From positions 1,364,001-1,428,000 of the forward strand of contig NZ_JBEGIK010000001.1 of the NCBI RefSeq assembly GCF_040675855.1: DNA of 64,000 bases, read 5' to 3'. A program made the translations under genes and the position numbers. This document shows, piece by piece, positions 5,527 through 46,431 of the stretch; positions within the stretch are counted from its first letter, which is position 1, and every line of letters starts with the position of its first letter. This DNA is from Microbacterium sp. LWH3-1.2 (GTDB taxonomy: Bacteria; Actinomycetota; Actinomycetes; Actinomycetales; Microbacteriaceae). The notes under the pieces are model-generated. The model had not been told where the DNA came from, searched no databases, and saw only the letters and a program-made list of their open reading frames with translations.

Positions 5527-6282
5527 ATGGCGGCGATCGACCTCAACGCGGACCTCGGCGAGACCGTCGACGGGCTGCCCACGGCCGACGACGAGGCGAT
5601 GTTCGCGGTCATCTCGAGCGCGAACGTGGCCTGCGGCGGGCACGCGGGCGACGCGGCCTCGATGCGCGAGGCGGTGCTCCGCGCCGAGCGGTTCGGGGTC
5701 GCCGTCGGGGCGCACCCGTCCTATCCCGATCGCGGGAACTTCGGGCGCGTGGCCGTCGTGATCGACCCCGCCGAGCTCACCGCCACGGTCGCGCGGCAGC
5801 TGGCCGCCCTCGCCGATGCCGGCGCCGACCTCCGCTACGTCAAGCCGCACGGCGCGCTGTATCACGCGGTGACCGCCGACCCGGTGCAGGCCGAAGCCGT
5901 CGCCCGGGCGATCGCACACAGTTCGGCGCTGGTCGGCCGGCCTCTGCCGGTGCTGGGCCTGGCGGGCGAGATCGAGCGGGCCGCAGCATCCGTCGGTCTG
6001 CCGTTCGTCCACGAGGCGTTCCTCGATCGGGGCTATCTGCCGGACGGCTCGCTCGTGCCGCGCACGCAGCCGGGTGCCCTGCTCGGCGACCCCGAGCTGG
6101 TGGCGGAGCGGGCCGTGCGCCTCGCGCGCGAGGGCGTGGTCGAGGCGGTGGACGGCTCTCTCGTGCGAGCGGATGCCGCATCCCTGTGCGTGCACGGCGA
6201 CTCGCCGTCGGCCGTCGACATGGCCCGCGCCGTGCGCGCGGCGCTGGACGCCGCCGGCGTGGAGGTGCGGGCGCCATGGTGA
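5527..6282 (+). CDS. pxpA: 5-oxoprolinase subunit A (LamB/YcsF family)
   Basis: A 251-residue protein with the full LamB/YcsF signature set: IDLNADLGE at the N-terminus, ISSANVACGGHAGD at about residues 29-42, GAHPSYPDRGNFGR, and LRYVKPHGALYH at about residue 100. PxpA works with PxpB and PxpC in ATP-dependent hydrolysis of 5-oxoproline (pyroglutamate) to glutamate, a damage-removal and salvage reaction in the cytosol. The next gene, a pxpB-pxpC fusion, overlaps its 3' end by 7 bases, indicating translational coupling and a two-cistron operon encoding all three subunits. Confidence 0.93.
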   Translation: MAAIDLNADLGETVDGLPTADDEAMFAVISSANVACGGHAGDAASMREAVLRAERFGVAVGAHPSYPDRGNFGRVAVVIDPAELTATVARQLAALADAGADLRYVKPHGALYHAVTADPVQAEAVARAIAHSSALVGRPLPVLGLAGEIERAAASVGLPFVHEAFLDRGYLPDGSLVPRTQPGALLGDPELVAERAVRLAREGVVEAVDGSLVRADAASLCVHGDSPSAVDMARAVRAALDAAGVEVRAPW

Positions 6283-7907
6283 CTCCGCGCGTGCGGCCGA
6301 TGGGGGAGCGCGCGTTCCTCCTCGAGGTCGGCGCGCTCGACGACGTGCTTCCGCTGCGCGCCGCGCTCGCCGGATCGCGGCCCGCGGGGGTGACCGATCT
6401 CGTGCCGGCGGCGCGCACGGTGCTCGTGCGGATCGATCCGCGGGTGCTCCCGCTGTCCACGGCGCGCGCGTGGGCGCTCGCCGCGGCGACGACCGCGGTG
6501 CAGGAGACCGATGCCGCGGCCCCGATCGTCGAGCTCGACATCGCCTACGACGGGGCCGACCTGGCCGACACCGCACGACTGCTGGGCGTCGAGGTCGACG
6601 AACTCGTGCGGCGCCATGCCGAGGCGGCCTGGCGGGTGGCGTTCACCGGCTTCGCCCCCGGTTTCGGCTACCTCGTGAGCGACGACTGGCCGTTCGATGT
6701 GCCGCGACTGGAGTCGCCCCGCACCCGCGTACCGGCCGGCTCCGTCGGGCTCGCCGGCGTCTTCAGCGGCGCGTACCCGCGCGACACTCCGGGCGGCTGG
6801 CGGCTCATCGGCACGACCGCGGCACGCCTGTTCGATCCGGATGCCGCGTCCCCCGCGCTGCTCGAACCGGGAGCGCGCGTGCGGTTCCGCCCCGTGCCCA
6901 CCGGCGGCGGAGCCCGCCCCGCCCCGGTCGAGAACCGCTCCTCTGCCGCGAATGGCCGGCCGGAGCGACACGTCATGACCGGTGAGCGGCGGCATGCCGG
7001 GGATGCGGGGGCGCCGTCGGGCGAGCCGGCGGCGGGCCGCAGCATCCGTGTCCTCGAACCGGGCCTCTTGACGACCGTGCAGGATCTCGGGCGAGAGGGC
7101 GCGGCGTCTGTCGGCGTCGCCGTGTCGGGAGGCCTCGACCGCGGGGCGCTGCGCACCGCGAACCGTCTCGTCGGCAACCCCGAGGAAGCCGCCGGGCTCG
7201 AGGTGACGATGGGCGGACTGCGCGTCGCGGCAGGCGCCGACCTCTGGGTCGCGGTGACGGGCGCGTGGGGCACGATGCGCATCGACGGGCGCGAGGTCGA
7301 TCCGTACGAGGCCCACGCGTGGCCGGGCGGCGCCGAGCTCCACCTCGACTGGTTCGCACACGGCGCGCGCGGCTACGTCGCCGTCCGCGGCGGACTCGAC
7401 GCGCGGGTCGCGCTCGGCTCGCGGTCGACGGATCTGCTCGCAGGGCTCGGGCCGGCGGCGCTGCGCGCCGGCGATGTCGTGGGCGTGCGCGACGACGAGA
7501 CGGGGCCGATCCCCGTCGCGCCTCCGGGCGGGTGGGGAGCGCCCCACGACGATGAGCTCGAACTCGAGCTCGCGCCCGGTCCGCGCGCCGACTGGTTCGC
7601 CCCCGCGGCGCTCGCGACCCTCTATGACACCGTGTGGACCGTCTCGAACCACGCGGACCGCGTCGGCGCACGCCTCGACGGGCCGGAGCTCGCGCGCGTG
7701 CGCACCGGGGAGCTCGCGAGCGAGGGCATGGTGCCGGGCGCGCTGCAGGTGCCGCCCAGCGGCCGGCCCACGATCCTGCTCGCCGACGGTCCGGTGACGG
7801 GCGGCTACCCCGTGATCGCGGTCGTGACCGATGCGAGTCTCGACCTCGTCGCCCAGGCCCGTCCGGGCACCCGCATCCGCTTCCGCCACGCGCGGCCGGC
7901 GTCCTGA
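6276..7907 (+). CDS. Fused 5-oxoprolinase subunits B and C (PxpB-PxpC)
   Basis: A single 543-residue frame with no internal stop. Residues about 1-205 are the PxpB/KipI-type domain (MGERAFLLEVGAL; FTGFAPGFGYLV; TRVPAGSVGLAGVFSGAYPRDTPGGW). Residues about 250-540 are the PxpC/KipA-type domain (VLEPGLLTTVQDLGREG; GGLDRGALRTANRLVGNP; ASEGMVPGALQVPPSGRPTI; ADGPVTGGYPVIAVV). The roughly 45-residue linker is low-complexity and includes an in-frame ATG at 6975, as if an intergenic spacer had been read into frame. Together with PxpA it should form the ATP-dependent 5-oxoprolinase. The ATG at 6276 overlaps the pxpA stop. B-C fusions are known in this family, including urea amidolyase-related proteins. 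Confidence 0.9.
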   Translation: MVTPRVRPMGERAFLLEVGALDDVLPLRAALAGSRPAGVTDLVPAARTVLVRIDPRVLPLSTARAWALAAATTAVQETDAAAPIVELDIAYDGADLADTARLLGVEVDELVRRHAEAAWRVAFTGFAPGFGYLVSDDWPFDVPRLESPRTRVPAGSVGLAGVFSGAYPRDTPGGWRLIGTTAARLFDPDAASPALLEPGARVRFRPVPTGGGARPAPVENRSSAANGRPERHVMTGERRHAGDAGAPSGEPAAGRSIRVLEPGLLTTVQDLGREGAASVGVAVSGGLDRGALRTANRLVGNPEEAAGLEVTMGGLRVAAGADLWVAVTGAWGTMRIDGREVDPYEAHAWPGGAELHLDWFAHGARGYVAVRGGLDARVALGSRSTDLLAGLGPAALRAGDVVGVRDDETGPIPVAPPGGWGAPHDDELELELAPGPRADWFAPAALATLYDTVWTVSNHADRVGARLDGPELARVRTGELASEGMVPGALQVPPSGRPTILLADGPVTGGYPVIAVVTDASLDLVAQARPGTRIRFRHARPAS

Positions 7908-7922
7908 CTTCGTGCAGGGCCG

Positions 7923-10130
7923 CTACGGAGAGCCGGACTCCAGCAGGTCGGCGGTGGCCCGCAGGATCGCGACGATCGCGGCGGTGCGCACGTCGGCCGG
8001 CGAACGCTGACCGTCGGGCTCGACGATGACCTTCTGCTGATCGACGGCGTCGTGCAGTGAGGTCAGCAGCACCCTCGAGCCGAGCGAGCCGGCGGCCGAG
8101 AGCAGCGGCCGCTGCTCGTAGTCGTCGTCGATGATGTCGAAGACCGCGGCGACGAACTCGCTGTTCGTGAGACCCGGGCTCTTCGCCAGCACCGCGAGGG
8201 CCGCGGTCGTGAACACACCGTGCCCGTTCGTCTCGAGCGCCACCTGATCGGGCTGACACGCACTGACGAGCACCTCGCGCTGGTCGCCGCGGGGCGCCGG
8301 GGCTTCGGCGGCGCGGTCGGTCTCGACGGCGACGACGCGGTCCCAGGCGGCTCGGCGGAACTCGTCGCCGAGCGCGGCGGCACGCTTGCTGCGGAACGCC
8401 TCCTCCTCGTCGCCGTCCAGGACCGTCATGCGGGGCGTCGCGCCGACGGGGTACCGCTTCGCGTCGAACTCCGAGCGCGTGAGGCCGCGGTTGACCGTTC
8501 CCGAGTGGCACGAGTCGAAGAAGAGCGTCGCCGAGACCCCGTCGGGGATCGCGTCCCAGATCGCGCCGAGGTCGTCATCGACGATGAGCTCCCCCCCTCG
8601 GAAGTCGACGGGGCAGAGCGCTTCGTCGCTCGCGCCGAACGCGTCGGTCTCGTCGCCGTCGAGGTCGGGGACGAACGTGCCGTGCCCGGCGAACTGGATG
8701 GCGACGACGTCGCCGTCCCGCGCGCTCGAGATCTTGTCGAGCATCGCCCGCAGGATCTCGTCGCGTGTCGCATCGCCGTCGCGGATGTACTCGACGTCGA
8801 ACCTCGCGGCCTCAAGGGCCGCGCCCCACGCGTCGGCATCGGCCACGCAGCCGCCGAGCGGGTCCTTCGGGTACTTGTCGATGCCGATGCACAGGGCGAG
8901 CTTGCGCGGCACGGCACCGCGCACCCCCGTCGGCTCGGGGCGCGGCATGCGCGAGCTCCCGCCTTCGAGCGCGACCTCTCGCGCCCGCATCGGGAAGTCC
9001 GCGACACCGTCGGGCTCGTCGCTGTCGGGGACGCCGACGACGCGGCGCGCGAGGCTCATCATTGTCTCGACGTCGTTGTCGAAATCGCCGTGGGAGGTCG
9101 CCTGCGTGCTGCTGAGACGACCCTTCGAGATCGGCCCCTTCACAAGGCGGCCGGGGTCGTCTCCGAGGTAGGCCATCGTCCTCCCGGCACTGCGGAGATG
9201 CTCGTCCAGGCCGAGGATCTTGGCACCGCGCTCGGCCTCGAACGCCCGCGAGACCAGGTACAGCAGCGATTTGCGGTAGACCCCCGCGGTGTTGTCCCGC
9301 TTCTCGTGGGTCTCATCCATCGTGAAGATCGCGACGTCGTGGATCTTCCCGCTCTCGGCCAGGGGCAGGAGGGTCGCCTCGAAGGTGTCGAGCCGCACGG
9401 CCGGCGCGAGGAATGTGACGCTCGCGACGTGATCGATGGCATCGGCGCCGTCGAACAGGCGGGGGACGAAGTGCGAGTGGTAGATCGAACCGGCGCTGTG
9501 CCCGGCGACGTGGATGTCGATCGCCCCCTGATTGGCCGCCATGTACTCTCGCAGCGCGCCGGCGAGGACGTCCGCGCCGCCGCGGGTCCCGTCCTTCATC
9601 GCGGGGAGGCAGGCCGCCGCCGAGTCCAGCTTCATGTCGTCCCAGAACTTGCGCCCGCCGAGCACGCGGGCGGCGGCCTCGACGGCGCGATCCGTGATGT
9701 CGGTGAACCCCCGCTTGCCGGTGGCCTTCCCCGAGATGACGTCGGCGAGCGTCGTCATGAGCCCGCTCTCCCAGACCAGGTGGATGGGGTACACGCCGTT
9801 CTTCTTCCACCACGCGACCTGGTGGTGGGCCGTCAGCAGCCCGGCGCTCTTGTCGGTGAGCCCGCCGTGCGCCCAGATCAGCACAGGGACCGGTGGCGGC
9901 ACGTCGCCCTTCGGCGCCTTCTTCGCCTGCTGCTCGACGAACGCGGCAAGGTCGGTCGCGACGATCCGGCGCACGTCGTCAGCGGTGGTCGCGAACTCCT
10001 CGACGGTGCGAGGCTTGGTCACCGACGTCGTCGCGAGCTTGCCGTCGGCGGTGTGGACGACGTGCTTGCGCAGCGCGGCCAGATCCGCCGCGCTCAGGGT
10101 CGCTCCGCGGGATGCTGTGGTGGTGGGCAT
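7923..10130 (-). CDS. Alpha/beta-hydrolase-caspase (peptidase C14) fusion
   Basis: A 735-residue two-domain protein. The N-terminal half is an alpha/beta hydrolase of the lipase/esterase type: VPVLIWAHGGLTDKSAG near the oxyanion region and nucleophile Ser212 in HVAGHSAGSIYH. The C-terminal half is a caspase-like domain (KLALCIGIDKYPKDPLGGCVADADAW) with catalytic His483 in FAGHGTF and Cys541 in FFDSCHSGT; VLVSACQPDQVALE follows. No signal peptide or membrane segment is visible. Metacaspase-like domains usually cut after Arg or Lys, but specificity cannot be read here. The ATG at 10130 has AGGA 9 bases upstream; the ATG at 10190 would overlap the CHAT stop as ATGA and is a possible coupled start. 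It is the last gene of the island. Confidence 0.88.
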   Translation of the reverse strand: MPTTTASRGATLSAADLAALRKHVVHTADGKLATTSVTKPRTVEEFATTADDVRRIVATDLAAFVEQQAKKAPKGDVPPPVPVLIWAHGGLTDKSAGLLTAHHQVAWWKKNGVYPIHLVWESGLMTTLADVISGKATGKRGFTDITDRAVEAAARVLGGRKFWDDMKLDSAAACLPAMKDGTRGGADVLAGALREYMAANQGAIDIHVAGHSAGSIYHSHFVPRLFDGADAIDHVASVTFLAPAVRLDTFEATLLPLAESGKIHDVAIFTMDETHEKRDNTAGVYRKSLLYLVSRAFEAERGAKILGLDEHLRSAGRTMAYLGDDPGRLVKGPISKGRLSSTQATSHGDFDNDVETMMSLARRVVGVPDSDEPDGVADFPMRAREVALEGGSSRMPRPEPTGVRGAVPRKLALCIGIDKYPKDPLGGCVADADAWGAALEAARFDVEYIRDGDATRDEILRAMLDKISSARDGDVVAIQFAGHGTFVPDLDGDETDAFGASDEALCPVDFRGGELIVDDDLGAIWDAIPDGVSATLFFDSCHSGTVNRGLTRSEFDAKRYPVGATPRMTVLDGDEEEAFRSKRAAALGDEFRRAAWDRVVAVETDRAAEAPAPRGDQREVLVSACQPDQVALETNGHGVFTTAALAVLAKSPGLTNSEFVAAVFDIIDDDYEQRPLLSAAGSLGSRVLLTSLHDAVDQQKVIVEPDGQRSPADVRTAAIVAILRATADLLESGSP

Positions 10131-10186
10131 GGTGTCACGTCCTGTCTGCTGGTGGTGGCGGTGGGCGGTGGTGCGCGTGGATCCGG

Positions 10187-12325
10187 TCATCGGGGTTCGA
10201 ACTTCGCGCGGGGATCGGCGAAGACGGTGAAGGCGAGCGAGGTGAGATCACCGGCGTCGCGCGCGGCGCGGCGCGCAGCCAGGACGGCCTCGCCGAGCGT
10301 GGCCCCGTCGCGCAGCGCGTGCTCGTAGAACGTGCGGACGAACAGTGCCGTGACGTCGTCGCGTACGGCCCAGGAGCATCCGATGAACACTCCGACGCCG
10401 CCGCGGAGGAACACCTCGGCGAACCCGCCGAGTCCGGTGGCCCCCGAGCGCAGGCGTCCCACGTCGCACGCGCTCAGGAACACGAACGGCGTCGACGGCC
10501 TCCCCTCGTCTCCGCCGGCCTCGGGCAGGTCCCGCCGGGCATCCGAGTCGGTGTATGAGGCGGAGCCGTCGTTGCGACGCAGCGAGAAGCGGGCGAACGC
10601 GATCTCCTGGCCCAGCGGCGCCACGTCCCGCCATCTGCCGTGTCCCGCGAAATGGAGGAGGTCGAACTCGCCCTGCGAGATCGCGGCACGCAGCTGCGCG
10701 GCGTCGGCGGCCGTCTGCGGAGTGCGCTTGAGGAGCTTCTTGAGGATCGTGACCTCTTCGCGGGCGCGCGGAAGGCGCAGACGCCGGTTGACATAGCTCG
10801 GCGCGATCGCGACGACGCGGCGGGGATCGATCGGAATGACCGTGGGCCGGGGCGTCCCGTACATCCAGCGCATGAGCCCGAGGTCGCCGAGGAAGAACCG
10901 GTCGGCATCGGGACGCTGATTGCCCACCGGTACCAGGTGCACGATCTCCCACGGGATGTCGAGTTCACCCGACGTCTGCAGGACGAGCTGCGAGATCCGC
11001 CGTCGCCGGTTCCAGAGCAGGGCGTTGACGTCGTCGCCGAGGAGCTCGCGCGCGATCCGCGCGCCGAGGGACCGCACCTCCCGTCGGGCGGTCGCGGCGG
11101 CCGCCTCGGCGTCGGCATTCGCCTCCTCCTCGTAGGCGGAGCGGATGCCCGCGAGATCGGTGTAGATCTGCTCGACGTAGCCCGCCTTGTCGGGCAGGTG
11201 CGCCGTGTGGCGCGCCACGGTGTCGCCGATCTTCGCGGTGATGACCAGCTCGCTCTCACCGCGGGCGATGGACTCGTCGATCGCGAGCGTCGGCAGGTCG
11301 GCGATGCTGCGCGGCGGGACGGCGACGGATGCCTCGACCACCTGCGCATCGCCGGTGCCGACGCCGTCCGCATCGGCGGGCAGGATCGGGGCGCTCAGCG
11401 CAAGGGTGGCGAGCGTGGCCATGACCGGCGGCTGCGTGAACTTCACGGTGATGTGGCCGCGCCCGGGATCGCGCGGGACGAGACGGAAGACGAGGCGCCG
11501 GGGCGCGTCGCCAGAGGTGGGCAGAGTGGTGGTGAGGGATGCCGGCTGCCCTTCGGCGAAGGAGAGGCCGCGCAGCTGCACCGCCACCTCGATCTCGCGC
11601 GTCGGGTCGAACTGCGCCGGAACCCTGATGTGTGCGGTGCCCGCCGTCGGGACGAGGTCCTGCAGCGACACCCGGACGACCGCCTCGAACTCGATTTCCT
11701 GCACGAGCCGTGACGGCATCGCCGCGTCGACGAAAGCCGGCACGGGTGCCGCGCCGGCCACACCCGTCGACGGCACGGCGGGCCGCGCCGCGGGCCCGGG
11801 GGGCGGGAGGGGCGCGGGCGCCGGTGCCGGAGCCGCCATCGGCGGCGGTGCGAGTCCGGGCGATCGCCCTCCGACGGAGAAGCCCCCGCCGAGGATGTCG
11901 CCGAGGTCGGGTGGCGGGACGGCCCGAGGCAGGGGCCGCGCGGGGGTCGCGCCCATGCCGCCGTGCGCGACCTTCTCCTCGAGCGCGGCCATCCCCGTCT
12001 CGGCCTCGCTCGCGACGATGCTGAGGTGCACCCTCTCCCCACCGCGCACGACGATCCGCGCCGAGTACCCGTGCCCGTCGGGCTCGAGGTGGACCAGCAC
12101 CACTCCGGAGTCGCGCGAGACGATCACGGCGTAATGGAAGTCGTCGGACCCGTGCACGCGCACCGTGGCCACGGTGTCCGCTCGCCCTTCCAGCAGGGCG
12201 TCGGCCAGCAGCATGATGCCCGTCCGGTCGGGGCCGGTGCCGGGCGGGGCGGGGTCCAGACGCACCTCGAGGGCATCGGCGTCGGCATCGACGTCGACGC
12301 GCGGCCCATCCGGAACCAGAGTCAT
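10187..12325 (-). CDS. CHAT-domain protease with long non-catalytic N-terminus
   Basis: A 712-residue protein. The C-terminal ~300 residues are a CHAT (caspase HetF-associated with TPRs) domain with catalytic His562 in LLHFAGHGRW and Cys620 in FVFLSACDVG; both are intact. CHAT proteins are cysteine peptidases of the caspase-separase clan. Residues about 1-130 form an unrecognised domain (ADALLEGRADTVATVRVHGSDDFHYAV). A Pro/Ala/Gly linker spans about 145-200, and a beta-rich region (SRLVQEIEFEAVVRVSLQDL...) extends to about 370. A GAGGGGG SD lies 5-6 bases before the ATG at 12325. Its stop overlaps the first possible start of the caspase gene, so the two are probably co-translated. I infer that one activates the other. 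Confidence 0.88.
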   Translation of the reverse strand: MTLVPDGPRVDVDADADALEVRLDPAPPGTGPDRTGIMLLADALLEGRADTVATVRVHGSDDFHYAVIVSRDSGVVLVHLEPDGHGYSARIVVRGGERVHLSIVASEAETGMAALEEKVAHGGMGATPARPLPRAVPPPDLGDILGGGFSVGGRSPGLAPPPMAAPAPAPAPLPPPGPAARPAVPSTGVAGAAPVPAFVDAAMPSRLVQEIEFEAVVRVSLQDLVPTAGTAHIRVPAQFDPTREIEVAVQLRGLSFAEGQPASLTTTLPTSGDAPRRLVFRLVPRDPGRGHITVKFTQPPVMATLATLALSAPILPADADGVGTGDAQVVEASVAVPPRSIADLPTLAIDESIARGESELVITAKIGDTVARHTAHLPDKAGYVEQIYTDLAGIRSAYEEEANADAEAAAATARREVRSLGARIARELLGDDVNALLWNRRRRISQLVLQTSGELDIPWEIVHLVPVGNQRPDADRFFLGDLGLMRWMYGTPRPTVIPIDPRRVVAIAPSYVNRRLRLPRAREEVTILKKLLKRTPQTAADAAQLRAAISQGEFDLLHFAGHGRWRDVAPLGQEIAFARFSLRRNDGSASYTDSDARRDLPEAGGDEGRPSTPFVFLSACDVGRLRSGATGLGGFAEVFLRGGVGVFIGCSWAVRDDVTALFVRTFYEHALRDGATLGEAVLAARRAARDAGDLTSLAFTVFADPRAKFEPR

Positions 12326-12497
12326 CCCGACCCCCTCGCTCCGCTGCCCGTTCCCCACGAGCACCGCCACCTGGTGAATCCGAGGAGTGCAGTCCGGTGC
12401 ACAGCATACGAGCGCACGCCTCACCGCACCAGAGCGCGCCGCGCCGGGTCCTGATACCTCGGAAGCACGGATGCCGAGGCCCGCGGCATCCGTCCCG
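12326..12497. other. 172-base gap within STAND/CHAT island
   Basis: This non-coding stretch separates the second STAND gene from the CHAT gene. It holds an inverted pair of ACGGATGCCG motifs (12467-12476 and 12484-12493, 7-base loop) right after the STAND stop, which could terminate or attenuate transcription into the CHAT-caspase pair. I see no clear -35/-10 promoter. Confidence 0.55.
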
Positions 12498-15137
12498 CTA
12501 CCAGGCGTGCAGCGCCTCGGCGACGGTTTCGAACTCGTGCTCGGAGAGGGCCAGCTGCACCGCTTCGGCGATGGTGAGTTCGGCCCCCGCGAGTTCACCG
12601 GCCTCGACGCTCTGCGGATCGCGGCCGCGGAGGATCTCGAGGTACGGGGTGTGGACGGTGAAGGCCTCCACGTCGAAGATGCCGATGCGCCGGCGGATCT
12701 CCCCGGCCGCCACGGCCAGCGCGGCCGCCCGCCATGCCTCGCCGTGCGCGGCGGCGACCGCGCACACCCCCTCGAGCCCGTACGCGACCCCCTCGTCATA
12801 GTGCAGTCCGACCGAGATCAGGAGGGTGTGCACGAACTCACGCTCGGCCTCGTCGATGCGGCCGAGCTGGAAGTTCAGCCGCGCGCGGAGGTTGCCCGCG
12901 ACGGAGGTCGTGAACAGATCGCCGCGGGACTCGGCGACAGAGGTGGCGCGGTCGAAGTGCGCGAGCGCGTCGTCGGTGGAACCGCGCACCCAGGCGAGCC
13001 GGCCGAGCGAGACCTCGGTGATCGCCTCCGCCCATGTGTTGCCGAGCTCTCGCAGGGTCACGACCGCCTCGCGCAGTTCGCCCGCGGCCTTGTCGGTGTC
13101 GAGGGGGGAGAACTGCACGCGCGCGGTGGCACGGGCGGCGAGGGCCATCGCTGCCGCATCCTCGTCGCCGCTCTCGCGGAACAGACGGACGCATTCGCCG
13201 AGTCCGGCCACCACCTGCTCGCTGGGCCGCTGCCACATCTCGCCCCACAGCGCGAAGAACCAGGCGATCGCGCGAGTGTGCGGGGTGATCGGCTGCTCGT
13301 GCTGCTTCTCGAGGAGCTCCAGCATCCACACCCGGACCTCCGCGAAGAAGCCGGAGATCCACCAGTAGATCAGCAAGCACCAGGCGAAGTCGCCGGCGTC
13401 GTCGAGCCGGTTCGTGTAGACGAGGTGGCGAACGGCAGCGCGGAGGTTCGGCAGATCGAGGCCGAGCCGCACCACAGCCTCGGCCTGGCCGCGTCCGCCG
13501 AGATCGGGGGCGATGCGCTCGACGAGCCCCCGGTAGTAATCGGCGTGGGCGCGCCGCACGCGCTGCGCGTCGCCGCGCTCCTTGAGGCGCCCGAGCGCGT
13601 ACTCGCGCACGATCGCGAGCAGTGAGAAGACCCGCCGGCCGCCGAGCTCGCTCTGCTTCACGAGCGAGCCGTCCGCGAGGGCGGCGAGGGCATCGATCGC
13701 GTGAGGGCCCCACGGACGGCCCTCGCCCAGCGCCTCGACGGCGTCGAGCGTGAACCTCGTCGCGAACACCCCGAGGTCCTCGAGGAGGTCGCGGTGCTCG
13801 GAGGGCAGCAGGCTCACGCTCCAGTCGATCGTCGCCCGCATCGTGCGGTGCCGCTCGGGCAGATCGCGCACTGCCGCCGTCAGGAGCGGCAGGCTCTGCT
13901 CGAGGCGGCTCGCGATCTGCGCCGGGTTCAGGATCCGCACCTTCGCCGCGGCGAGCTCGATCGCCAGCGGCAGGCCCTCCAGGCGCCGGCAGATGTCCGC
14001 GAGATCCCGCGCGTTGCCCGGCGTGACGTCGAAGCGGGGATCGATCGCGCGTGCGCGGTCGACGAACAGCGACACCGCCGCGGAGCGCGTGGTGCGGTCG
14101 AGGCTCGCCGGGCCGTCGCCGGCCGGAGTCGTGAGCGGCGGCACGTCGTACACGTGCTCGCCGCGGATGCGCAGCACGATCCGGCTCGTCACCAGGAACG
14201 TCGCCGCCGGCGCGAGGGTGTACAGCCGCACCAGGACGGGTGCGGCATCCACGATCTGCTCGAAGTTGTCGACCACGATCAGCACGCGGCGATCCGTGAG
14301 GGCGTGGGCGATGCGCTCCTCGAGCGCGGCTTCGCCGTTGTCACGGATGCCGAGATAGTAGGCGATCGTCGGCAGCAGCAGCCCGGGTTCGAGCACGCCC
14401 TCGAGGAGGACGAAGTACACGCCGTCGGGGAAGAGGTCGCCGCAGGCCAGCGCGGACTCGATCGCGAGCCGGCTCTTGCCGATGCCGCCCGGCCCGATGA
14501 GGCTCACCACGCGGTCGGTGCCTCGCGCCAGGAGCGTGCGCACCGCGTCGATGTCGGCTTCGCGGCCGATGGTGGTCGTGTAGGGCACGGGGACGCGGCC
14601 GACCAGGCTCACCGGTACCGCATCGGCGTCGGGCACCTCCGGCGCACGGGATTCGTCGAAGCGTTCGGCGAGGAGCATGGCGAGGTCGCCGGCGACGTGG
14701 TCTTCGAGGTCGTGGGCGTTGTGGAAGTGGAGGTAGGCGGCGGTGTCGTCGGCTTGGATGCGGGCGATGAGGTCGGTGAGCCGCTGGTCGCGGGTGTCGG
14801 TGTCTTTGACGTAGATGAGTTTGGGCATGCCGGCGGGGGCGAGGTTGTATTCGTCTTCGAGGCCGGAGACGTTCTCGTCGGGGGCGACCCAGCCGTAGCT
14901 CTGGCCGTAGATGCCGATGAAGATGTCGGATTGGGCGAGGTAGGAGCGGTAGAGGTCGCGGGGCGGGTGGGGGCGGGCGCCGAGTTCGAACATCACTGGG
15001 GCGAGCCGGAGCCGCTCGATGGCCGACCGCACTGCTTCTCGTTCTTCCGCGAGCTCGCGCAGGGTCGAGCTCACGAACACCCGGATCCGCTGGTCGGGCG
15101 TACGGATCACCGGGGTTCGCTCGGGGCCTGTCACCAC
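12498..15137 (-). CDS. DUF4062-STAND NTPase-TPR protein (second copy)
   Basis: An 879-residue protein. Residues 18-160 form a DUF4062 domain (RIRVFVSSTLRELAEEREAV; SDIFIGIYGQSYGWV), a TIR-like Rossmann module common in signalling and conflict proteins. The NB-ARC/AAA-type NTPase follows, with Walker A GPGGIGKS (Lys221), Walker B RVLIVVDNFEQI, and the sensor/winged-helix region GLPLAIELAAAKVRIL, then HRTMRATIDWSVSLL. The C-terminal ~350 residues are TPR-like helices. It starts at a GTG that overlaps the preceding STAND stop by 7 bases. Residues 10-161 are encoded by DNA identical to the first copy; the rest is clearly diverged. I infer a switch-like sensor with an N-terminal effector or adaptor. 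An AfsR/MalT-like regulator is less likely because no DNA-binding domain is seen. Confidence 0.87.
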   Translation of the reverse strand: MVTGPERTPVIRTPDQRIRVFVSSTLRELAEEREAVRSAIERLRLAPVMFELGARPHPPRDLYRSYLAQSDIFIGIYGQSYGWVAPDENVSGLEDEYNLAPAGMPKLIYVKDTDTRDQRLTDLIARIQADDTAAYLHFHNAHDLEDHVAGDLAMLLAERFDESRAPEVPDADAVPVSLVGRVPVPYTTTIGREADIDAVRTLLARGTDRVVSLIGPGGIGKSRLAIESALACGDLFPDGVYFVLLEGVLEPGLLLPTIAYYLGIRDNGEAALEERIAHALTDRRVLIVVDNFEQIVDAAPVLVRLYTLAPAATFLVTSRIVLRIRGEHVYDVPPLTTPAGDGPASLDRTTRSAAVSLFVDRARAIDPRFDVTPGNARDLADICRRLEGLPLAIELAAAKVRILNPAQIASRLEQSLPLLTAAVRDLPERHRTMRATIDWSVSLLPSEHRDLLEDLGVFATRFTLDAVEALGEGRPWGPHAIDALAALADGSLVKQSELGGRRVFSLLAIVREYALGRLKERGDAQRVRRAHADYYRGLVERIAPDLGGRGQAEAVVRLGLDLPNLRAAVRHLVYTNRLDDAGDFAWCLLIYWWISGFFAEVRVWMLELLEKQHEQPITPHTRAIAWFFALWGEMWQRPSEQVVAGLGECVRLFRESGDEDAAAMALAARATARVQFSPLDTDKAAGELREAVVTLRELGNTWAEAITEVSLGRLAWVRGSTDDALAHFDRATSVAESRGDLFTTSVAGNLRARLNFQLGRIDEAEREFVHTLLISVGLHYDEGVAYGLEGVCAVAAAHGEAWRAAALAVAAGEIRRRIGIFDVEAFTVHTPYLEILRGRDPQSVEAGELAGAELTIAEAVQLALSEHEFETVAEALHAW
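14655..15110 (-). repeat. 456-bp identical DUF4062 block, copy B
   Basis: Base-for-base identical to 17273-17728 by direct comparison, in the same orientation, offset 2618 bases. It encodes residues 10-161 of the second STAND protein. Sequence on both sides diverges at once. The block uses codons that are rare in its neighbours (AAA, CAA, GAA, GCA). Confidence 0.97.
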
Positions 15138-17755
15138 GAAGGGACCTTCGCTCGGACGTCCGCGTCGGCGTCGGGCAGTGCGATCGAGATGGCCTCCGCA
15201 AGGCCCATCTCCCTCCCCGCGCGCTCGCCGGCCTCGACGCTCTCGGGGTCGACGGCCCGCAGGGCCTCGAGCGGCGCCAGGTGGATGGCGAAGCCTTCGA
15301 TGTCGTAGATGCCCGTCGTCTCACGGATCGTCGCCGCCACCGCCGAGAGAGCGCCGGCACGCCACGCGTCGCCGTGCGAGGCGGCGATCGCGCACATGCC
15401 CTCCAGCCCGTAGGTGGCGCCGTCGACGAAGTGCAGCCGGATCGACAGCAGCAGCGTCAGCAGGAACTCCGCCTCGGCCTCGTCGCGCTCGCCCAGAACG
15501 AAGCGCAGACGCGCGCGGTTGTTGCCAGCAACGACGCGGGTGAAGGCGTCATCGGCGGCGTCGGCGATGTCGACCGCGCGACCGAGGTGCTCCAGCGCCG
15601 CCGGGATGTCGCGACGCAGCATGCCGAACTGACCGAGCACCGTCTCGGCGAGGGACTCCGACCAGCTGTCGCCGAGGTCGTGGAGGGTCGCGATCGCCTC
15701 GCCGATCTCGGCCAGGAACACCTCTTCGTCGAGGTCGGTGGACTGCAGCCGGGTCGACGCCTTCGCGGCGAGCGCCATCGCGGCGGCCTGCTCGTCGCCG
15801 CTCTCGGTGAACAGCCGCACGACCTCGCCGAGGCGCTCCACCGCCTGATCGTTCGGGCGCTGCCACAGCTCCGCCCACAGCGGGAAGAACGTCGCGATCG
15901 CGCGTGTGCGCGGGGTCAGCGGCATCCGTTTCTCGAGCAGTTCCAGCATCCACAGCCGCACGTCGGCGAAGTACCCGCAGATCCACCAATAGGGGAACAT
16001 CGTCCATGCGAAGTCGCCCGCATCGTCGAGCCGGTTCATGGAGACGAGGTGGCGCGCCGCCGCGCGCAGGTTCGGCACCTCGAGCCCCAGTTCGGCGACG
16101 GCGTCGATCTGCTCGGCGCCGCGCAGGCGCGGCGCGACCCGGTGCACCAGGTCGAGGTAGTAGTCGGCGTGCGCGATCCGCATCTCGTCGGCCGCCCTGC
16201 GGGACTCGAGCGTGTCGAGCGCGTATTCGCGCACGATCGCCAGAAGCGAGAACACCGAACGGCCGCCCGAGTCGATGCGCTGCACCAGGGACGCGTCGAT
16301 CAGCGCGGCGAGCGTCTCGATCGTCTCGGAACCCCACGCACGGTTCTCACCCACCGCCTCGACCGACTCGAGACTGAACCGGGCGGCGAAGACGCCGAGG
16401 TCCTCGAGCATCGCCCGCTGCTCATCGGTCAACAGGCCCACGCTCCAGTCGATCGTCGCGCGCATGGTGCGGTGACGGTCGGGAAGGTCGCGCACCGAGG
16501 TCGACAGCAGCGGGAGGCTCTGCCCGAGCCGCTCGGCGACGTCGCGGGGCGAGAGGATCCGGATCTTCGCCGCGGCGAGCTCGATCGCCAGGGGCAGACC
16601 GTCGAGCTGCCGGCAGATGGCGATGACGTCGGCCGCGTTGTCGGCGGTCAGCTGGAAGCCGGGGAGTGCGGACGCGGCACGCTCGGCGAACAGCACGCAC
16701 GCCGAGGAGGCCTGCGCCTGCGCGAGTGTGGCAGGAAGGTCTGGTGCGGGGGTGTCGAGCGTCTCGACCTCGAACACGCGCTCCCCGCGGATGCGCAGCA
16801 CGATGCGGCTCGTCACCAGGAAGCACGCGCGCGGTGCCAGCGAGTACAGCCGCACCAGGACGGGCGCCTCGTCGATGATCTGCTCGAAGTTGTCGAGCAC
16901 GATGAGCACGTGGCGGTCCCCGATCGCCTGCGCGATCCTCTCCTCGAGCGTAGCCGCGCCGGTGTCGCGCACGCCGAGGATGTAGGCGATCGTGGGCAGC
17001 AGCAGCCCCGGTTCGAGCACGCCCTCGAGCGGCACGAAGTAGACGCCGTCGGGGAACAGGTCGGTGTTCGCGTGCGCCGCCTCGATGGCGAGCCGGCTCT
17101 TGCCGATGCCGCCCGGCCCGATGAGGCTGACGACCCGGTGGAGGCCGCCGGCCAGCAGCGCCCGGATCTCGGCGAGCTCGCCCTCGCGACCGATCGTCTC
17201 GGTGTACGGCTCGGGCACGCGTGCCGCGAGCGAGATCTCGGCGGCCGTCGCCGGCTCGGTGCGCCGCGACTGGTCGAAGCGTTCGGCGAGGAGCATGGCG
17301 AGGTCGCCGGCGACGTGGTCTTCGAGGTCGTGGGCGTTGTGGAAGTGGAGGTAGGCGGCGGTGTCGTCGGCTTGGATGCGGGCGATGAGGTCGGTGAGCC
17401 GCTGGTCGCGGGTGTCGGTGTCTTTGACGTAGATGAGTTTGGGCATGCCGGCGGGGGCGAGGTTGTATTCGTCTTCGAGGCCGGAGACGTTCTCGTCGGG
17501 GGCGACCCAGCCGTAGCTCTGGCCGTAGATGCCGATGAAGATGTCGGATTGGGCGAGGTAGGAGCGGTAGAGGTCGCGGGGCGGGTGGGGGCGGGCGCCG
17601 AGTTCGAACATCACTGGGGCGAGCCGGAGCCGCTCGATGGCCGACCGCACTGCTTCTCGTTCTTCCGCGAGCTCGCGCAGGGTCGAGCTCACGAACACCC
17701 GGATCCGCTGGTCGGGCGTACGGATCACGGGGTGTTCCACCCCAGTCATGTGCAT
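15131..17755 (-). CDS. DUF4062-STAND NTPase-TPR protein (first copy)
   Basis: An 874-residue paralogue of the next gene with the same architecture: DUF4062 (residues about 18-160), NB-ARC-type NTPase with Walker A GPGGIGKS (Lys219) and Walker B HVLIVLDNFEQI, the GLPLAIELAAAKIRIL region, and a TPR-like C-terminus with WMLELLEKRMPLTPRTRAIA. By eye the NTPase halves are about 70 percent identical and the TPR tails less so, while the N-terminal 152 residues match exactly at the DNA level. The start is ambiguous: ATG at 17755 or 17749 (MHMTGVEHP), neither with a good SD; 17755 is chosen because it aligns with the paralogue start. It heads the four-gene minus-strand island. Confidence 0.87.
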   Translation of the reverse strand: MHMTGVEHPVIRTPDQRIRVFVSSTLRELAEEREAVRSAIERLRLAPVMFELGARPHPPRDLYRSYLAQSDIFIGIYGQSYGWVAPDENVSGLEDEYNLAPAGMPKLIYVKDTDTRDQRLTDLIARIQADDTAAYLHFHNAHDLEDHVAGDLAMLLAERFDQSRRTEPATAAEISLAARVPEPYTETIGREGELAEIRALLAGGLHRVVSLIGPGGIGKSRLAIEAAHANTDLFPDGVYFVPLEGVLEPGLLLPTIAYILGVRDTGAATLEERIAQAIGDRHVLIVLDNFEQIIDEAPVLVRLYSLAPRACFLVTSRIVLRIRGERVFEVETLDTPAPDLPATLAQAQASSACVLFAERAASALPGFQLTADNAADVIAICRQLDGLPLAIELAAAKIRILSPRDVAERLGQSLPLLSTSVRDLPDRHRTMRATIDWSVGLLTDEQRAMLEDLGVFAARFSLESVEAVGENRAWGSETIETLAALIDASLVQRIDSGGRSVFSLLAIVREYALDTLESRRAADEMRIAHADYYLDLVHRVAPRLRGAEQIDAVAELGLEVPNLRAAARHLVSMNRLDDAGDFAWTMFPYWWICGYFADVRLWMLELLEKRMPLTPRTRAIATFFPLWAELWQRPNDQAVERLGEVVRLFTESGDEQAAAMALAAKASTRLQSTDLDEEVFLAEIGEAIATLHDLGDSWSESLAETVLGQFGMLRRDIPAALEHLGRAVDIADAADDAFTRVVAGNNRARLRFVLGERDEAEAEFLLTLLLSIRLHFVDGATYGLEGMCAIAASHGDAWRAGALSAVAATIRETTGIYDIEGFAIHLAPLEALRAVDPESVEAGERAGREMGLAEAISIALPDADADVRAKVPSW
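17273..17728 (-). repeat. 456-bp identical DUF4062 block, copy A
   Basis: Partner of 14655-15110. It encodes residues 10-161 of the first STAND protein. Identity stops sharply: base 17729 differs from 15111, and 17272 from 14654. Confidence 0.97.
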
Positions 17756-17971
17756 ATACTGGCGCGATCGGGGAAGTTTCGCCATGGTTTCGGTGCACGG
17801 ATGCATCGGATGCCCGGTCCCGTTTCGGCTCGGGCGCACCTCGTTCCGCGTCCCGGCCCCGCTCTTCCGTGAGGGCGCGCGCAGGAGTATGGTGCGGCGG
17901 TGACGGCGTCGGAGTGGACGCCGTTCGTCCGGATCGGGGCTTCGGGCGTCATCCCATGGGAGGGGAATTCG
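17756..17971. other. Divergent intergenic region, STAND island and secreted protein
   Basis: A 216-base gap that must carry the island promoter (leftward) and the promoter for the secreted-protein gene (rightward). For the latter, TATGGT at 17888-17893 is a possible -10, with TTCCGT 17 bases upstream as a poor -35. I could not find a convincing promoter for the island. Confidence 0.35.
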
Positions 17972-18337
17972 ATGAAGAAGGTACTGGCGTGCGCGGTCGT
18001 GGCGATCGGGCTGGTGCTGGGCAGCGGCGGCGCGGCGATGGCGGGCGAGGTCAACGGGAACGGGGACGACACACCGATCGCGGGGCATGACACTGCTGCC
18101 TCGATCTGCGCGTTCTCGGGATTGGACACGGCGGACTCCATCGAGGGCGTCATCCCGTTCCCCGACGACACGCTCGCCCTGCGGGGCAACCAATCACCGG
18201 CGGGCAACGATCGCCACCACGGCGTGCAGAACTATGGGATGTTCCAGCGTCCGCTCGCCAAGGAGATGGGCATCGACGAGCTGGTGCCTTCTCCGGGCGC
18301 GGAGTGTCGCGGCAACCTCGAAAGCACCGCACCGTAA
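17972..18337 (+). CDS. Small secreted protein of unknown function
   Basis: A 121-residue protein with a classical Sec signal peptide: MKKVLACAVVAIGLVLG, then SGGAAMA, with cleavage likely after AMA. The mature part has two cysteines (SICAFSG and AECRGN), which could form one disulfide, plus His/Asn/Gly-rich segments (GNDRHHGVQNYG). I do not recognise the family. The ATG at 17972 is chosen because GGAGGGG lies 6-7 bases upstream and it opens directly into the signal peptide; an upstream in-frame GTG at 17900 would spoil it. A strong hairpin follows the stop. Confidence 0.7.
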   Translation: MKKVLACAVVAIGLVLGSGGAAMAGEVNGNGDDTPIAGHDTAASICAFSGLDTADSIEGVIPFPDDTLALRGNQSPAGNDRHHGVQNYGMFQRPLAKEMGIDELVPSPGAECRGNLESTAP

Positions 18338-18350
18338 AGCCTGCAGCCTG

Positions 18351-18378
18351 GCCGCCTCCGCGCAGGTGCGGGGGCGGC
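18351..18378 (+). terminator. Hairpin terminator after secreted-protein gene
   Basis: Eleven-base arms GCCGCCTCCGC and GCGGGGGCGGC (one T-G pair) with a 6-base loop, 13 bases after the stop and followed by TTCGG. It insulates the rpoB promoter region. Confidence 0.75.
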
Positions 18379-18434
18379 TTCGGCGTTCCGGGCAGGCTTA
18401 TACCGCAGCATCCAGAACTTTTCAAGAATCCGAC

Positions 18435-18463
18435 TGGACACGGCGCGTCGTGCGACGTATAGT
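18435..18463 (+). promoter_or_regulatory. rpoB promoter
   Basis: TGGACA (18435-18440), a 17-base spacer, then TATAGT (18458-18463): a good housekeeping-sigma promoter. The predicted start near 18470 leaves a leader of about 155 bases before the rpoB TTG. Confidence 0.8.
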
Positions 18464-18624
18464 GGGTCTTTGCGCTCTTGGATTCCCCCTGCCCTCATAT
18501 GGTGGTCGGCTGTGCCTGCGCCCCCTCACGTTCACGTGGGGAGTGCCGCGCGGGTTTCGGGGATGAGGAGCACTCCACCTGACGACAAGGAAACGAGCCC
18601 TACGGGCCCACGGAGGTAATCCCC

Positions 18625-22122
<3,498 letters not shown>

Positions 22123-31892: not shown

Positions 31893-32071
31893 ACTGACGC
31901 CGGCCCCGTCGTCGCGGCTCGTCCGGTGCCGGCCCGCCGCACGCGCTCGCACTGTCCACATCTCTGCTTGCCACGCGGGTTCCCGGGAGGTGGGTTTTGT
32001 TAGCATGACCGGGTTTGTCGTCGCGCTGGCGGCAGTGGTGTGACGGTAGCGGACTGCGGGGAGGTGTGCGG

Positions 32072-33211
32072 GTGGCGGCACGGCTTCCCTCGGCGCCCCC
32101 GATCCTTCCGGGACTCGCCTACATCCGCCCGCTCGGCTCGGGCGGATTCGCCGACGTCTTCCTCTACGAGCAGGACATGCCACGTCGCAACGTCGCGGTG
32201 AAGGTCATGCCGAGCGACGTGCGCGACCCGGAGCTTCGGCGAATGTTCAACGCCGAGGCCGACGTGCTGGCGCACCTGTCGGCACACCCTTCGATCGTGA
32301 CGGTCTACCAGGCGAGCATCTCGGCAGACGGCCGCCCGTACATCGTCATGGAGTACTGCCCCGGCTCTCTGGCGCAGCGCTACCGAGTCGAGCGCATCCC
32401 GGTCGAGGAGGTGCTCGCCATCGGCGTGCGCATGGCGAGCGCGCTCGAGTCCGCGCACCGCGCCGGCCTCATCCACCGCGACGTGAAACCCAGCAACATC
32501 CTCATCACCACATTCGGCACGCCCGTGCTCGCCGACTTCGGCATCTCAGCCTCGCTGCAGCGCAAGAGCGGCGGCGAGGTGCTGGCGATGTCGATCCCGT
32601 GGAGTGCTCCCGAGGTCGTCGCCGAGCGGACGAGCGGGACGGTGACGAGCGAGGTGTGGAGCCTCGGTGCCACGGTGTACTCGCTGCTGGCCGGCCACAG
32701 CCCGTTCGAGCGCCGCGAGCGCGGCCAGAACACCAAGGACCTGCTGCGCAAGCGCATCGCGCGCGCCACCTACGTCGAGATCCCGCGGGCCGACGTCCCG
32801 GCGTCGCTGCAGGCCGTGCTCGCGACCGCGATGAGCCGCGACCCCGGTCGCCGCCACGACTCCGCCCGTGCCTTCGGCGAAGGGCTGCGCGAGGTGCAGT
32901 CGGGGCTCGGCCTCTCGCCGACGCCGCTCGAGATCCCGGACGAGGAGTGGTCTCCCGCATCCGCTCCCGTCGATTTCGCGGATTCGGCGCTGCGAGGACC
33001 CGCGCGTTCGCACGTGGAGCGCGATCTCACGCGCAAGGCGCGCGCCGGCACCGGCGTCGCGCAGCTCGCCCGTGACGAGGACACCGAGATCTCCGCACCC
33101 GCCCGCCGCCGCGGTCGGGCCGTGCTGCCCTGGGCCATCGGCGTCGGAGCGGGGATCGTCGCGGGGGCCGGCGCGGTCGTCGTGGCGCTGATGGTCGCAG
33201 GGGTGCTCTGA
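32072..33211 (+). CDS. Membrane-anchored serine/threonine protein kinase
   Basis: 379 residues. Kinase domain at about 10-270: Gly loop LGSGGFADVF, ATP-anchoring Lys44 in VAVKVM, catalytic loop HRDVKPSNIL (Asp137), ADFGIS metal loop, and SAPEV. One membrane segment lies near the C-terminus (AVLPWAIGVGAGIVAGAGAVVVALMVAGVL) with only a few residues outside, so there is no PASTA or other sensor domain. The GTG at 32072 is preceded by GGAGG at 7 bases; a TTG at 32015 gives a longer but odd N-terminus. The stop overlaps the ATG of the giant Ig-like gene (TGATG). Likely targets include the FHA protein of the same operon. Confidence 0.92.
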   Translation: MAARLPSAPPILPGLAYIRPLGSGGFADVFLYEQDMPRRNVAVKVMPSDVRDPELRRMFNAEADVLAHLSAHPSIVTVYQASISADGRPYIVMEYCPGSLAQRYRVERIPVEEVLAIGVRMASALESAHRAGLIHRDVKPSNILITTFGTPVLADFGISASLQRKSGGEVLAMSIPWSAPEVVAERTSGTVTSEVWSLGATVYSLLAGHSPFERRERGQNTKDLLRKRIARATYVEIPRADVPASLQAVLATAMSRDPGRRHDSARAFGEGLREVQSGLGLSPTPLEIPDEEWSPASAPVDFADSALRGPARSHVERDLTRKARAGTGVAQLARDEDTEISAPARRRGRAVLPWAIGVGAGIVAGAGAVVVALMVAGVL

Positions 33212-39180: not shown

Positions 39181-39231
39181 GCGGCAGCATCCGTTCGCCC
39201 CACGATCCCCGCAGACGACGAAGGACACCAC

Positions 39232-40197
39232 ATGACGATCACGCAGGAGCAGGCCGACTGGTTCGCGCAGACGTTCGGGCAGATCGCCGACAACGTCGAG
39301 CGCGCCGTGCTCGGCAAGCGCCACGTCGTCGAGCTCGTGCTCACCGCGATGCTCAGCGACGGCCACGTGCTCCTCGAGGATGTGCCGGGAACCGGCAAGA
39401 CGTCGCTGGCGCGGGCCATGGCGCAGTCGGTGCAGGGCACGAACACGCGCATCCAGTTCACTCCGGACCTGCTGCCGAGCGACATCACGGGCCTCAGCGT
39501 GTACGACCAGAAGGAGGGCGTGTTCGAGTTCCACGCCGGTCCGATCTTCGCCAACATCGTGCTCGCCGACGAGATCAACCGGGCGAGCCCGAAGACGCAG
39601 TCGGCGCTCCTCGAGGTCATGGAGGAGGGGCGCGTCACGATCGACGGCGTCTCGCGCGAAGCCGGTGTGCCGTTCCTCGTGCTCGCGACGCAGAACCCGG
39701 TCGAGCAGGCCGGTACCTACCGCCTGCCCGAGGCGCAGCTCGACCGCTTCATGATGCGCACGTCGCTCGGCTACCCCGACCACGCGGCGACCGTCCGCAT
39801 CCTCGACGGTGCCGCCGTCGCGACCGCCGAGCTCTCGCCGATCATCACGCCCCAGGCGCTCGTCGGCATGGCCGACCTCGCCGCCGACGTGTACGTCGAC
39901 GCGCTCGTGCTCGACTACATCGCCCGCCTCGTCGACAGCACGCGCACGGCTGACGAGGTGCGCCTGGGGGTCAGCATCCGCGGCGCCCTCGCCCTCACGC
40001 GCGCCGCGCGCACGCGGGCCGCCTCGCAGGGCCGCACCTACGCGACCCCCGACGACGTCAAGACGCTCGCCGTGCCCGTGCTGTCGCACCGCCTGATCCT
40101 GCACCCCGAGGCCGAGTTCGACGGCGTCACCCCCGAGACCGTGGTCGGGCAGGTGCTGCTCGACGTGGCGCCGCCTTCGAGGCGCGAAGCGATATGA
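39232..40197 (+). CDS. MoxR-family AAA+ ATPase
   Basis: 321 residues. Walker A EDVPGTGKTSLARA; Walker B IVLADEINRASPKTQ; sensor-1 region LVLATQNPVEQAGTYRLPEAQLDRF; the C-terminal lid is MoxR-like. MoxR ATPases act as chaperones that assemble or activate partner complexes, usually with a DUF58/VWA protein and a transglutaminase-like protein, all present here downstream. Start ATG 39232 with GAAGGA upstream. Its stop overlaps the DUF58 ATG as ATGA. Confidence 0.95.
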   Translation: MTITQEQADWFAQTFGQIADNVERAVLGKRHVVELVLTAMLSDGHVLLEDVPGTGKTSLARAMAQSVQGTNTRIQFTPDLLPSDITGLSVYDQKEGVFEFHAGPIFANIVLADEINRASPKTQSALLEVMEEGRVTIDGVSREAGVPFLVLATQNPVEQAGTYRLPEAQLDRFMMRTSLGYPDHAATVRILDGAAVATAELSPIITPQALVGMADLAADVYVDALVLDYIARLVDSTRTADEVRLGVSIRGALALTRAARTRAASQGRTYATPDDVKTLAVPVLSHRLILHPEAEFDGVTPETVVGQVLLDVAPPSRREAI

Positions 40198-46355: not shown

Positions 46356-46431
46356 GGGGTACGCCCGACGGCGATCTGGGCCGCGCTGCGGCGTGTCGTC
46401 CCTCCGTCGGGCCTGTCACGTGCTTCCGCGT

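Follow-up and report, generated by a model that had tools for sequence, protein, structure and literature searches.

A CHAT/hydrolase-caspase pair and a DUF4062-STAND array as probably separable modules of an accessory site upstream of rpoB in Microbacterium

Do four adjoining genes beside rpoB act in one suicide pathway, or does the site hold more than one device? The window analysed here, a stretch of 64,000 nucleotides (nt) from the genome of a soil Microbacterium, carries between pxpABC (5527–7907) and the presumptive rpoB (18625), an essential gene, four minus-strand genes, which encode two STAND nucleoside triphosphatases (NTPases; STAND1 and STAND2), a CHAT protease, and a fusion of a predicted α/β-hydrolase with a caspase-like domain (hydrolase-caspase, CASP). 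A sequence-only reading had located the four genes, all of which are present where it placed them, and had proposed that a ligand-triggered STAND switch activates CHAT, which in turn activates the hydrolase-caspase. The genes and the evidence for each are as follows, with lengths in amino acids (aa) of the encoded open reading frame (ORF).

15131..17749, minus strand: STAND1, DUF4062 (TIR-like NADase family)-NB-ARC-TPR-like protein, 872 aa (ORF, Pfam, structure match, K217, E92)
12498..15137, minus strand: STAND2, DUF4062-NB-ARC-TPR-like protein, 879 aa (ORF, Pfam, K221, E94)
10187..12325, minus strand: CHAT-family cysteine protease, 712 aa, with β-rich N-terminus, DUF7363, and CHAT (ORF, Pfam, alignment, model)
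7923..10130, minus strand: hydrolase-caspase fusion, 735 aa (ORF, Pfam, alignment)

The best explanation of this arrangement, mechanism included, is probably that a single accessory site, located upstream of rpoB, houses two self-destruct modules that are separable. Most likely, the island is an accessory locus for suicide in two layers, and its protease pair would be a variant of protease-gated effectors with a predicted function; the protein families involved make a role in conflict or suicide plausible. From the proposed chain, the coupling between CHAT and the hydrolase-caspase is well supported by genomics, while an obligate STAND trigger lacks such support.

CHAT and the hydrolase-caspase form a conserved unit because they occur in the same genomes, are always adjacent, are fused in several ORFs, and diverge in step. 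To sample the genus, 198 Microbacterium genomes were taken from a larger group, and matches to either protein were counted at E ≤ 1e-20. CASP is present in 13/198 and CHAT in the same 13, and by their coordinates the two are adjacent every time. Protein identities were correlated over the 66 pairs of 12 loci, the partial values holding RpoB constant (2000 permutations). For CHAT and CASP, rho is 0.91 and the partial value 0.90 (0/2000 permutations reach it), against 0.64 and 0.59 for STAND2 and CHAT (18/2000) and 0.71 and 0.51 for STAND2 and CASP (38/2000). Correlation with RpoB itself amounts to 0.87 for STAND2, 0.43 for CHAT, and 0.57 for CASP. Moreover, loci L019 and L020 have a pair allele in common (CASP 91%, CHAT 87% identity between them) that is far from that of the window (CASP/CHAT 59/50% and 59/47%). 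The same two loci are 99% identical to the window in RpoB, 88–90% in STAND2, and 82–87% in STAND1, and to each other 81% in STAND1 and 91% in STAND2. Here the pair allele seems to have been replaced next to a STAND array that stayed stable.

In a wider scan over 84,980 species genomes, 281 hydrolase-caspase relatives turned up, spread over many phyla; the best 80 of them gave 78 loci, some again from Microbacterium. Partners were counted by six-frame profile searches. CHAT accompanies the hydrolase-caspase in 26/78 loci, in 22 as an adjacent gene and in four within the same ORF, arranged as CHAT-CASP in L065, L066, and L080 and as CASP-CHAT in L061; L117 is included although its CHAT gene lies on the opposite strand. 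Another 42/78 loci contain no CHAT and encode nearby an unrelated protein of about 600 aa. Five of these proteins were scanned without a Pfam match. HExxH is found in 40 of the 41 partner matches over 300 aa, many of which also have a downstream HEAxAD motif, and from these two motifs we infer a family of zinc metalloproteases. CHAT and the HExxH protein occur together in 0/78 loci.

A second caspase is encoded in 14/78 loci (11 Cryobacterium, two Arthrobacter, and the Desulfopila locus L087). In 13 loci of Cryobacterium and Arthrobacter (L067–L077, L081, and L100), a three-protease cluster is seen, in which the flanking genes of the hydrolase-caspase encode an HExxH protein, in the opposite orientation, and a second caspase, which is short. 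Further, in L083 hydrolase and caspase follow an Amidase_2 domain, and in Sinorhizobium (L156) a region 32% identical to the hydrolase of the window follows a papain-like domain (25.1 bits, cut-off 20.7). Thus, the hydrolase or its relatives occur with four protease kinds. Tentatively, the hydrolase-caspase might be the core of an undescribed, widespread class of protease-gated hydrolase executioners with an interchangeable activator, fused or adjacent. This would be CHAT, the HExxH protein, or, where the hydrolase is a related one, a papain-like domain, and the window would hold the CHAT version atop a gene-converted DUF4062-STAND array as a second suicide line. The reverse-order fusion L061 (7402–13185, Agromyces cavernae; 1927 aa, caspase then CHAT) has Phe at the place of CHAT Cys620 and Gln at the places of H88 and H483; it is probably catalytically dead and perhaps a regulator or decoy.

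The stretch 7907–18625 of the window reads as an accessory hotspot beside rpoB with independent modules. Ten further rpoB loci were taken from ten genomes outside the 41 with strong STAND matches described below. In four of them (L146, L147, L148, and L150), the rpoB and pxpC matches are only about 265–670 bp apart; L149 has a small ORF between the two, and L151–L155 gave no pxpA or pxpC match within the fetched stretch. In L054, the pair adjoins rpoB without a STAND, with pxpC on the other side, and it likewise adjoins rpoB without a STAND in L023/L055 (one contig, ending inside CASP). In a set of 20 loci chosen for STANDs that have no pair beside them, between one and four STAND copies lie near rpoB. 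The contents of the rpoB-pxpC interval vary, from empty to STAND arrays, the protease pair, and other cargo such as a LuxR-type regulator (L037), an Ig/cadherin-like protein (L022), and unknown ORFs (L031, L149). Carriage on plasmids or phages was considered and set aside; among 102 matching plasmid records (tblastn), one (Kovacikia) covers at least 80% of the hydrolase-caspase.

These distributions bear on a rather unlikely alternative, namely that the hydrolase-caspase and its partner have a housekeeping or stress role, such as protein quality control, peptide or lipid turnover, or developmental lysis, and not one in immunity. Its occurrence in many phyla would fit, as would its position, in the few places examined often beside ordinary metabolic genes. 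Around L024 and L025, the two loci where the pair is not next to rpoB, 5/6 tested genes look metabolic or structural; the sixth, an AAA gene near L025, has matches among the restriction models of PADLOC. The functions of prokaryotic metacaspases are, moreover, called largely unknown in the available sections of PMC3501461. Patchy presence in 13/198 genomes, fast divergence relative to RpoB, empty alleles at an accessory site, and allele replacement speak against such a role.

How, then, are the STANDs related to the pair? The STAND search matched 86/198 genomes at E ≤ 1e-30, distant NB-ARC proteins included, and 41 at E = 0. The 41 were counted by hand from E = 0 matches only, with a best match that is full-length or nearly so; left out are G067, G085, G118, and G163, whose weaker long matches reach into the DUF4062 part. 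Thirty of the 41 STAND genomes are without the pair. A strong full-length STAND is present in 11 of the 13 pair genomes, in 10/13 with STANDs directly upstream of the pair; G032 and G150 (72% complete) have the pair without a STAND match, and G112 has pair and STANDs at separate places. Neither module thus needs the other, though the association is real, with 11 co-occurrences against 2.7 expected (Fisher p 5e-7, uncorrected for phylogeny). By the test that the sequence-only reading had set for itself, STAND homologues mostly occur apart from the pair, whereas CHAT and hydrolase-caspase stay together. The idea of an undescribed four-part combination was rejected, since the pair is found again in places that lack these STANDs, and the STANDs in places that lack the pair.

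Among the 78 loci, a STAND match lies within 6 kb in ten, nine of them Microbacterium with CHAT. The tenth is L082 (Sinomonas), where the STAND match lacks the DUF4062 part and no CHAT is found. A STAND of the window type together with CHAT amounts to 9/26 CHAT loci, all Microbacterium, other sensor kinds not having been searched systematically. Within the island, a gap of 172 nt separates STAND2 from CHAT and holds two elements.

12464..12500, minus strand: stem-loop at the stop codon that ends STAND2 (by folding, −20.5 kcal/mol, z −2.3), a possible terminator without a T-run
12400..12434, minus strand: promoter-like block upstream of CHAT (TCTGGTGC, 17 nt, TATGCT), with one exact genome copy

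Over seven related loci, the mean column identity of the gap is 77%, and TATGCT is conserved in 6/7 aligned loci; the stem-loop is also present in L019 and L046. With gap, stem-loop, and promoter-like block preceding CHAT, one operon of four genes is doubtful.

We regard it as unlikely that the four genes form one integrated pathway, in which the STANDs would sense infection and contact CHAT or make an NAD-derived signal (Thoeris-like), CHAT then acting on the hydrolase-caspase. The excess co-occurrence, the same-strand position of the STANDs directly upstream of the pair, and the STAND2-pair correlations that persist with RpoB held constant (0.51–0.59) all speak for such a pathway, and TIR signalling to a caspase-like protease, which Rousset is said to have described in 2025, counts for it as well. 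It is opposed by the pair without STAND in G032, G150, and L054, the other genera seen without this STAND type, the 30 STAND genomes without the pair, the elements preceding CHAT, the absence of a nucleotide-sensing domain from CHAT by Pfam, and the replaced pair beside stable STANDs.

On the reading of two separable modules, the STANDs may be sensor-executioners in their own right. DUF4062 scores 76 bits in STAND1 and 75.9 bits in STAND2 (Pfam, curated cut-off 24.7). NB-ARC stays below its curated cut-off in the two (16 and 19 bits, cut-off 23.5), as does TPR_12, which is matched in STAND2 only (21 bits, cut-off 30). Residues 175–511 of STAND1 match the solved AfsR STAND core (PDB, E 9e-7), and both proteins have the Walker A lysine (K217 in STAND1, K221 in STAND2), as in STAND NTPases of the NB-ARC/AP-ATPase type.

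The available sections of a 2026 preprint report DUF4062 as a TIR-like NADase; its member KpSwz requires E97 and is triggered by the phage portal (PMC13174449). Residues 13–100 of STAND1 match the KpSwz DUF4062 structure weakly (E 0.003), and the match extends no further. In this weak match, STAND1 E92 aligns with residue 82 of chain 10wc, which by the construct numbering should be KpSwz E97, and E94 of STAND2 is the same motif. Because both STANDs keep the aligned catalytic glutamate of a reported NADase family, they may be executioners themselves, and with a predicted NADase domain they may need no downstream protease. As far as the same sections of the preprint go, Swarozyc and other DUF4062 NADases share with the STANDs this domain with its aligned glutamate and a C-terminal sensor part. 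KpSwz has a portal-binding helix-turn-helix/winged domain, whereas the STANDs have a putative NB-ARC-TPR part in an APAF-1-like layout; the layout of TEP1/NWD is likened to APAF-1 there (PMC13174449).

The DUF4062 parts of the two STANDs have nearly the same DNA sequence.

17300..17716, minus strand: DUF4062 domain of STAND1, residues 12–150, DNA near-identical to the STAND2 copy
14682..15098, minus strand: DUF4062 domain of STAND2, residues 14–152, DNA near-identical to the STAND1 copy

Identity of these copies is a rounded 100% over residues 12–150 and 99% over a 300-nt piece; outside DUF4062, the two STANDs are 67–74% identical. Within-genome DUF4062 identity reaches 99–100% in the window, L014, L016, L019, L027, L036, and L048, and 95–96% in L017, L020, and L028, in gene pairs that are 71–75% identical in NB-ARC and 63–67% in TPR. 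The DUF4062 domains of the window are 78–94% identical to those of six sister loci. On our reading, one group of STAND arrays has undergone gene conversion repeatedly in its effector domain. Copies that are 71–86% alike weigh against gene conversion in L021, L026, L029, L030, L032, L033, L035, L037, L041, and L042, and likewise for the third copies of L027, L028, and L036. A phage search gave three partial STAND1 matches, none of which spans the DUF4062 part.

The proteins of the pair are divided into four domains.

11396..11725, minus strand: DUF7363 domain of the CHAT protein, residues 201–310 (Pfam)
10256..11062, minus strand: CHAT protease domain, residues 422–690, H562/C620 (Pfam, alignment)
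8991..10091, minus strand: predicted α/β-hydrolase domain, residues 14–380, with HGG 88–90, S212, D279, and H347 (motifs, alignment, weak profiles)
8058..8915, minus strand: metacaspase-like domain, residues 406–691, H483/C541 (Pfam, alignment, fold search)

The CHAT domain scores 81 bits in Pfam, alongside DUF7363 and Peptidase_C25. Its dyad residues H562 and C620 are invariant in 19 aligned CHATs and each kept in 38/40 of a larger set, and its predicted model matches 8tl0 and Craspase chains in a fold search. Pfam finds neither a SAVED nor a nucleotide-sensing domain on this protein, and the PADLOC SAVED_CHAT match is confined to residues 543–685. In the hydrolase-caspase, Peptidase_C14 (84 bits, Pfam) has the metacaspase/C14 p20 fold with a His-Cys dyad. 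The hydrolase half gave no Pfam match at cut-off, and 5/27 aligned members weakly match the DUF900 α/β-hydrolase (best 3.4e-4; the window's own 0.042); its predicted nucleophile motif at S212 is GHSAG (GxSxG type). S212, D279, H347, and C541 are kept in 78/78 relatives, H483 and the HGG histidine in 77/78. The predicted catalytic residues that had previously looked intact (K217, K221, H562/C620, S212, and H483/C541) are all in place. It is quite unlikely that the partner protease is no activator and the hydrolase a sensor (lipid or cell-wall binding) with both proteases as parallel effectors, since this conservation of Ser, Asp, His, and the HGG histidine suggests catalysis, even if the Amidase_2 domain fused to hydrolase-caspase in L083 could sense or cut peptidoglycan and a papain-like domain precedes the Sinorhizobium relative.

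In the mechanism that we propose for the two modules, CHAT and the hydrolase-caspase would act as a protease-gated executioner. An infection or damage signal would activate CHAT via its β-rich N-terminus and DUF7363, and CHAT would cleave the hydrolase-caspase at a site such as the low-confidence linker of residues 383–405 or the p20-p10 linker. Cleavage would free or activate caspase and hydrolase, which would cut proteins and probably lipids, so that the cell is killed or arrested; lipase activity and cascade order are predictions from the domains. The two DUF4062 STANDs would form an independent sensor-executioner, in which the TPR part would bind a ligand, NB-ARC oligomerise, and the TIR-like NADase become active and empty the cell of NAD+. 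The homogenised state of the NADase domain, and with it the divergence of the STAND sensors, is seen in the sequence. Co-location of both modules might provide layered defence, with any direct cross-talk hypothetical.

Several observations weigh against this interpretation. The excess co-occurrence of STANDs and pair is as compatible with coupling as with a common hotspot. The claim of a separate transcription unit rests on sequence conservation because a generic sigma-70 promoter/terminator scan was empty across the STAND2-CHAT stretch; moreover, the stem-loop is not evident in the alignment of L014 and L018, and a shortened piece of L016 folded without it. The surroundings of L024 and L025 are no clear defence island. 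For the pair, PADLOC returns a generic caspase (9e-15) and weak SAVED_CHAT (7e-4) and JetC (0.04) matches, and for the STANDs no match. The hydrolase fold is predicted from motifs, secondary structure, and weak profile matches, and a fold search with the hydrolase-caspase model gave caspase-fold rows only, none covering the hydrolase half. Finally, the 78 loci are not independent, as many are from Cryobacterium, Microbacterium, and Polaromonas and some from one organism, and 10/78 have neither partner under the criteria used, among them L107, whose adjacent CHAT gene has its CHAT domain too far into the gene to be counted.

Related protease systems are known. SAVED-CHAT cascades of type III CRISPR (available sections of PMC11229360) and the TPR-CHAT of Craspase have in common with the pair a CHAT protease with a proteolytic target, here predicted. 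Their CHAT carries SAVED or TPR; here, Pfam finds neither of the two, DUF7363 takes this place, and a hydrolase-caspase is the neighbour. Mobile protease-activated pro-enzymes, caspase-activated nucleases included, are described in the sections available of PMC12799240. Its nuclease-protease pairs and canu caspase-nuclease systems likewise combine a protease with a proenzyme, change context as a pair, and use varied protease families for one enzyme. As described there, canu has an MBL-fold nuclease gene with a caspase; Pfam finds no nuclease domain in any of the four island genes, and the pair, unlike nuclease-protease systems, has a predicted α/β-hydrolase fused to the caspase and a CHAT or HExxH protein as partner.

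In VMAP ternary conflict systems, a caspase is always beside an α/β-hydrolase gene (PMC7159879, in part). Caspase and hydrolase are separate genes there and one polypeptide here, and a Pfam search confined to the four island genes found no MoxR, vWA, or VMAP domain. The main text of PMC7159879 and PMC8195603 mentions CHAT and DUF4062 0 times. Amidase_2-metacaspase fusions were described in 2012 in Polaromonas and others, and L083 with its Amidase_2 and caspase domains is similar; the available sections mention no α/β-hydrolase or metalloprotease-like neighbour, and CHAT 0 times (PMC3501461). CATRA caspase-dependent ternary systems, compared by one mention in the accessible part of PMC8195603 alone, are caspase-centred and could overlap with the pair. 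With CATRA outside the comparison, none of the papers listed in searches of open-access literature was recognised as describing a pairing of CHAT and hydrolase-caspase.

If true, the pair would be a two-protease device, in which CHAT acts on a caspase carrying its own hydrolase and the activator can be swapped for an unrelated protease, a close parallel to the initiator and executioner proteases of animal cell death. The STANDs would place DUF4062, newly assigned as NADase, in a bacterial STAND layout resembling human TEP1, and gene conversion of the NADase domain would be a natural experiment on the diversification of sensor arrays.

The accessory site is bounded by two plus-strand features.

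18625..22122, plus strand: rpoB, as we take this gene to be, right-hand flank of the accessory site
5527..7907, plus strand: pxpA to pxpC, genes for 5-oxoprolinase subunits, as left-hand flank; Pfam identifies PxpA as LamB_YcsF, and the remaining subunits are presumably as named

STAND1 and STAND2 overlap by the 7 nt noted before if STAND2 starts at GTG 15137, and by 4 nt with a start at 15134. The overlap formerly suggested between the CHAT stop and a caspase start would need an upstream ATG at 10190, which exists, but the start kept across the alignment is 10130. Between STAND1 and rpoB lies a small divergent ORF (17900–18337) with a signal-peptide-like start, which has no Pfam match and relatives in several loci at 49–90% identity. 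Farther along, the window contains a large plus-strand cluster (32000–46400) with a 1989-aa protein, whose neighbours at 39232, 40194, and 41708 we take to be a MoxR/DUF58/transglutaminase set.

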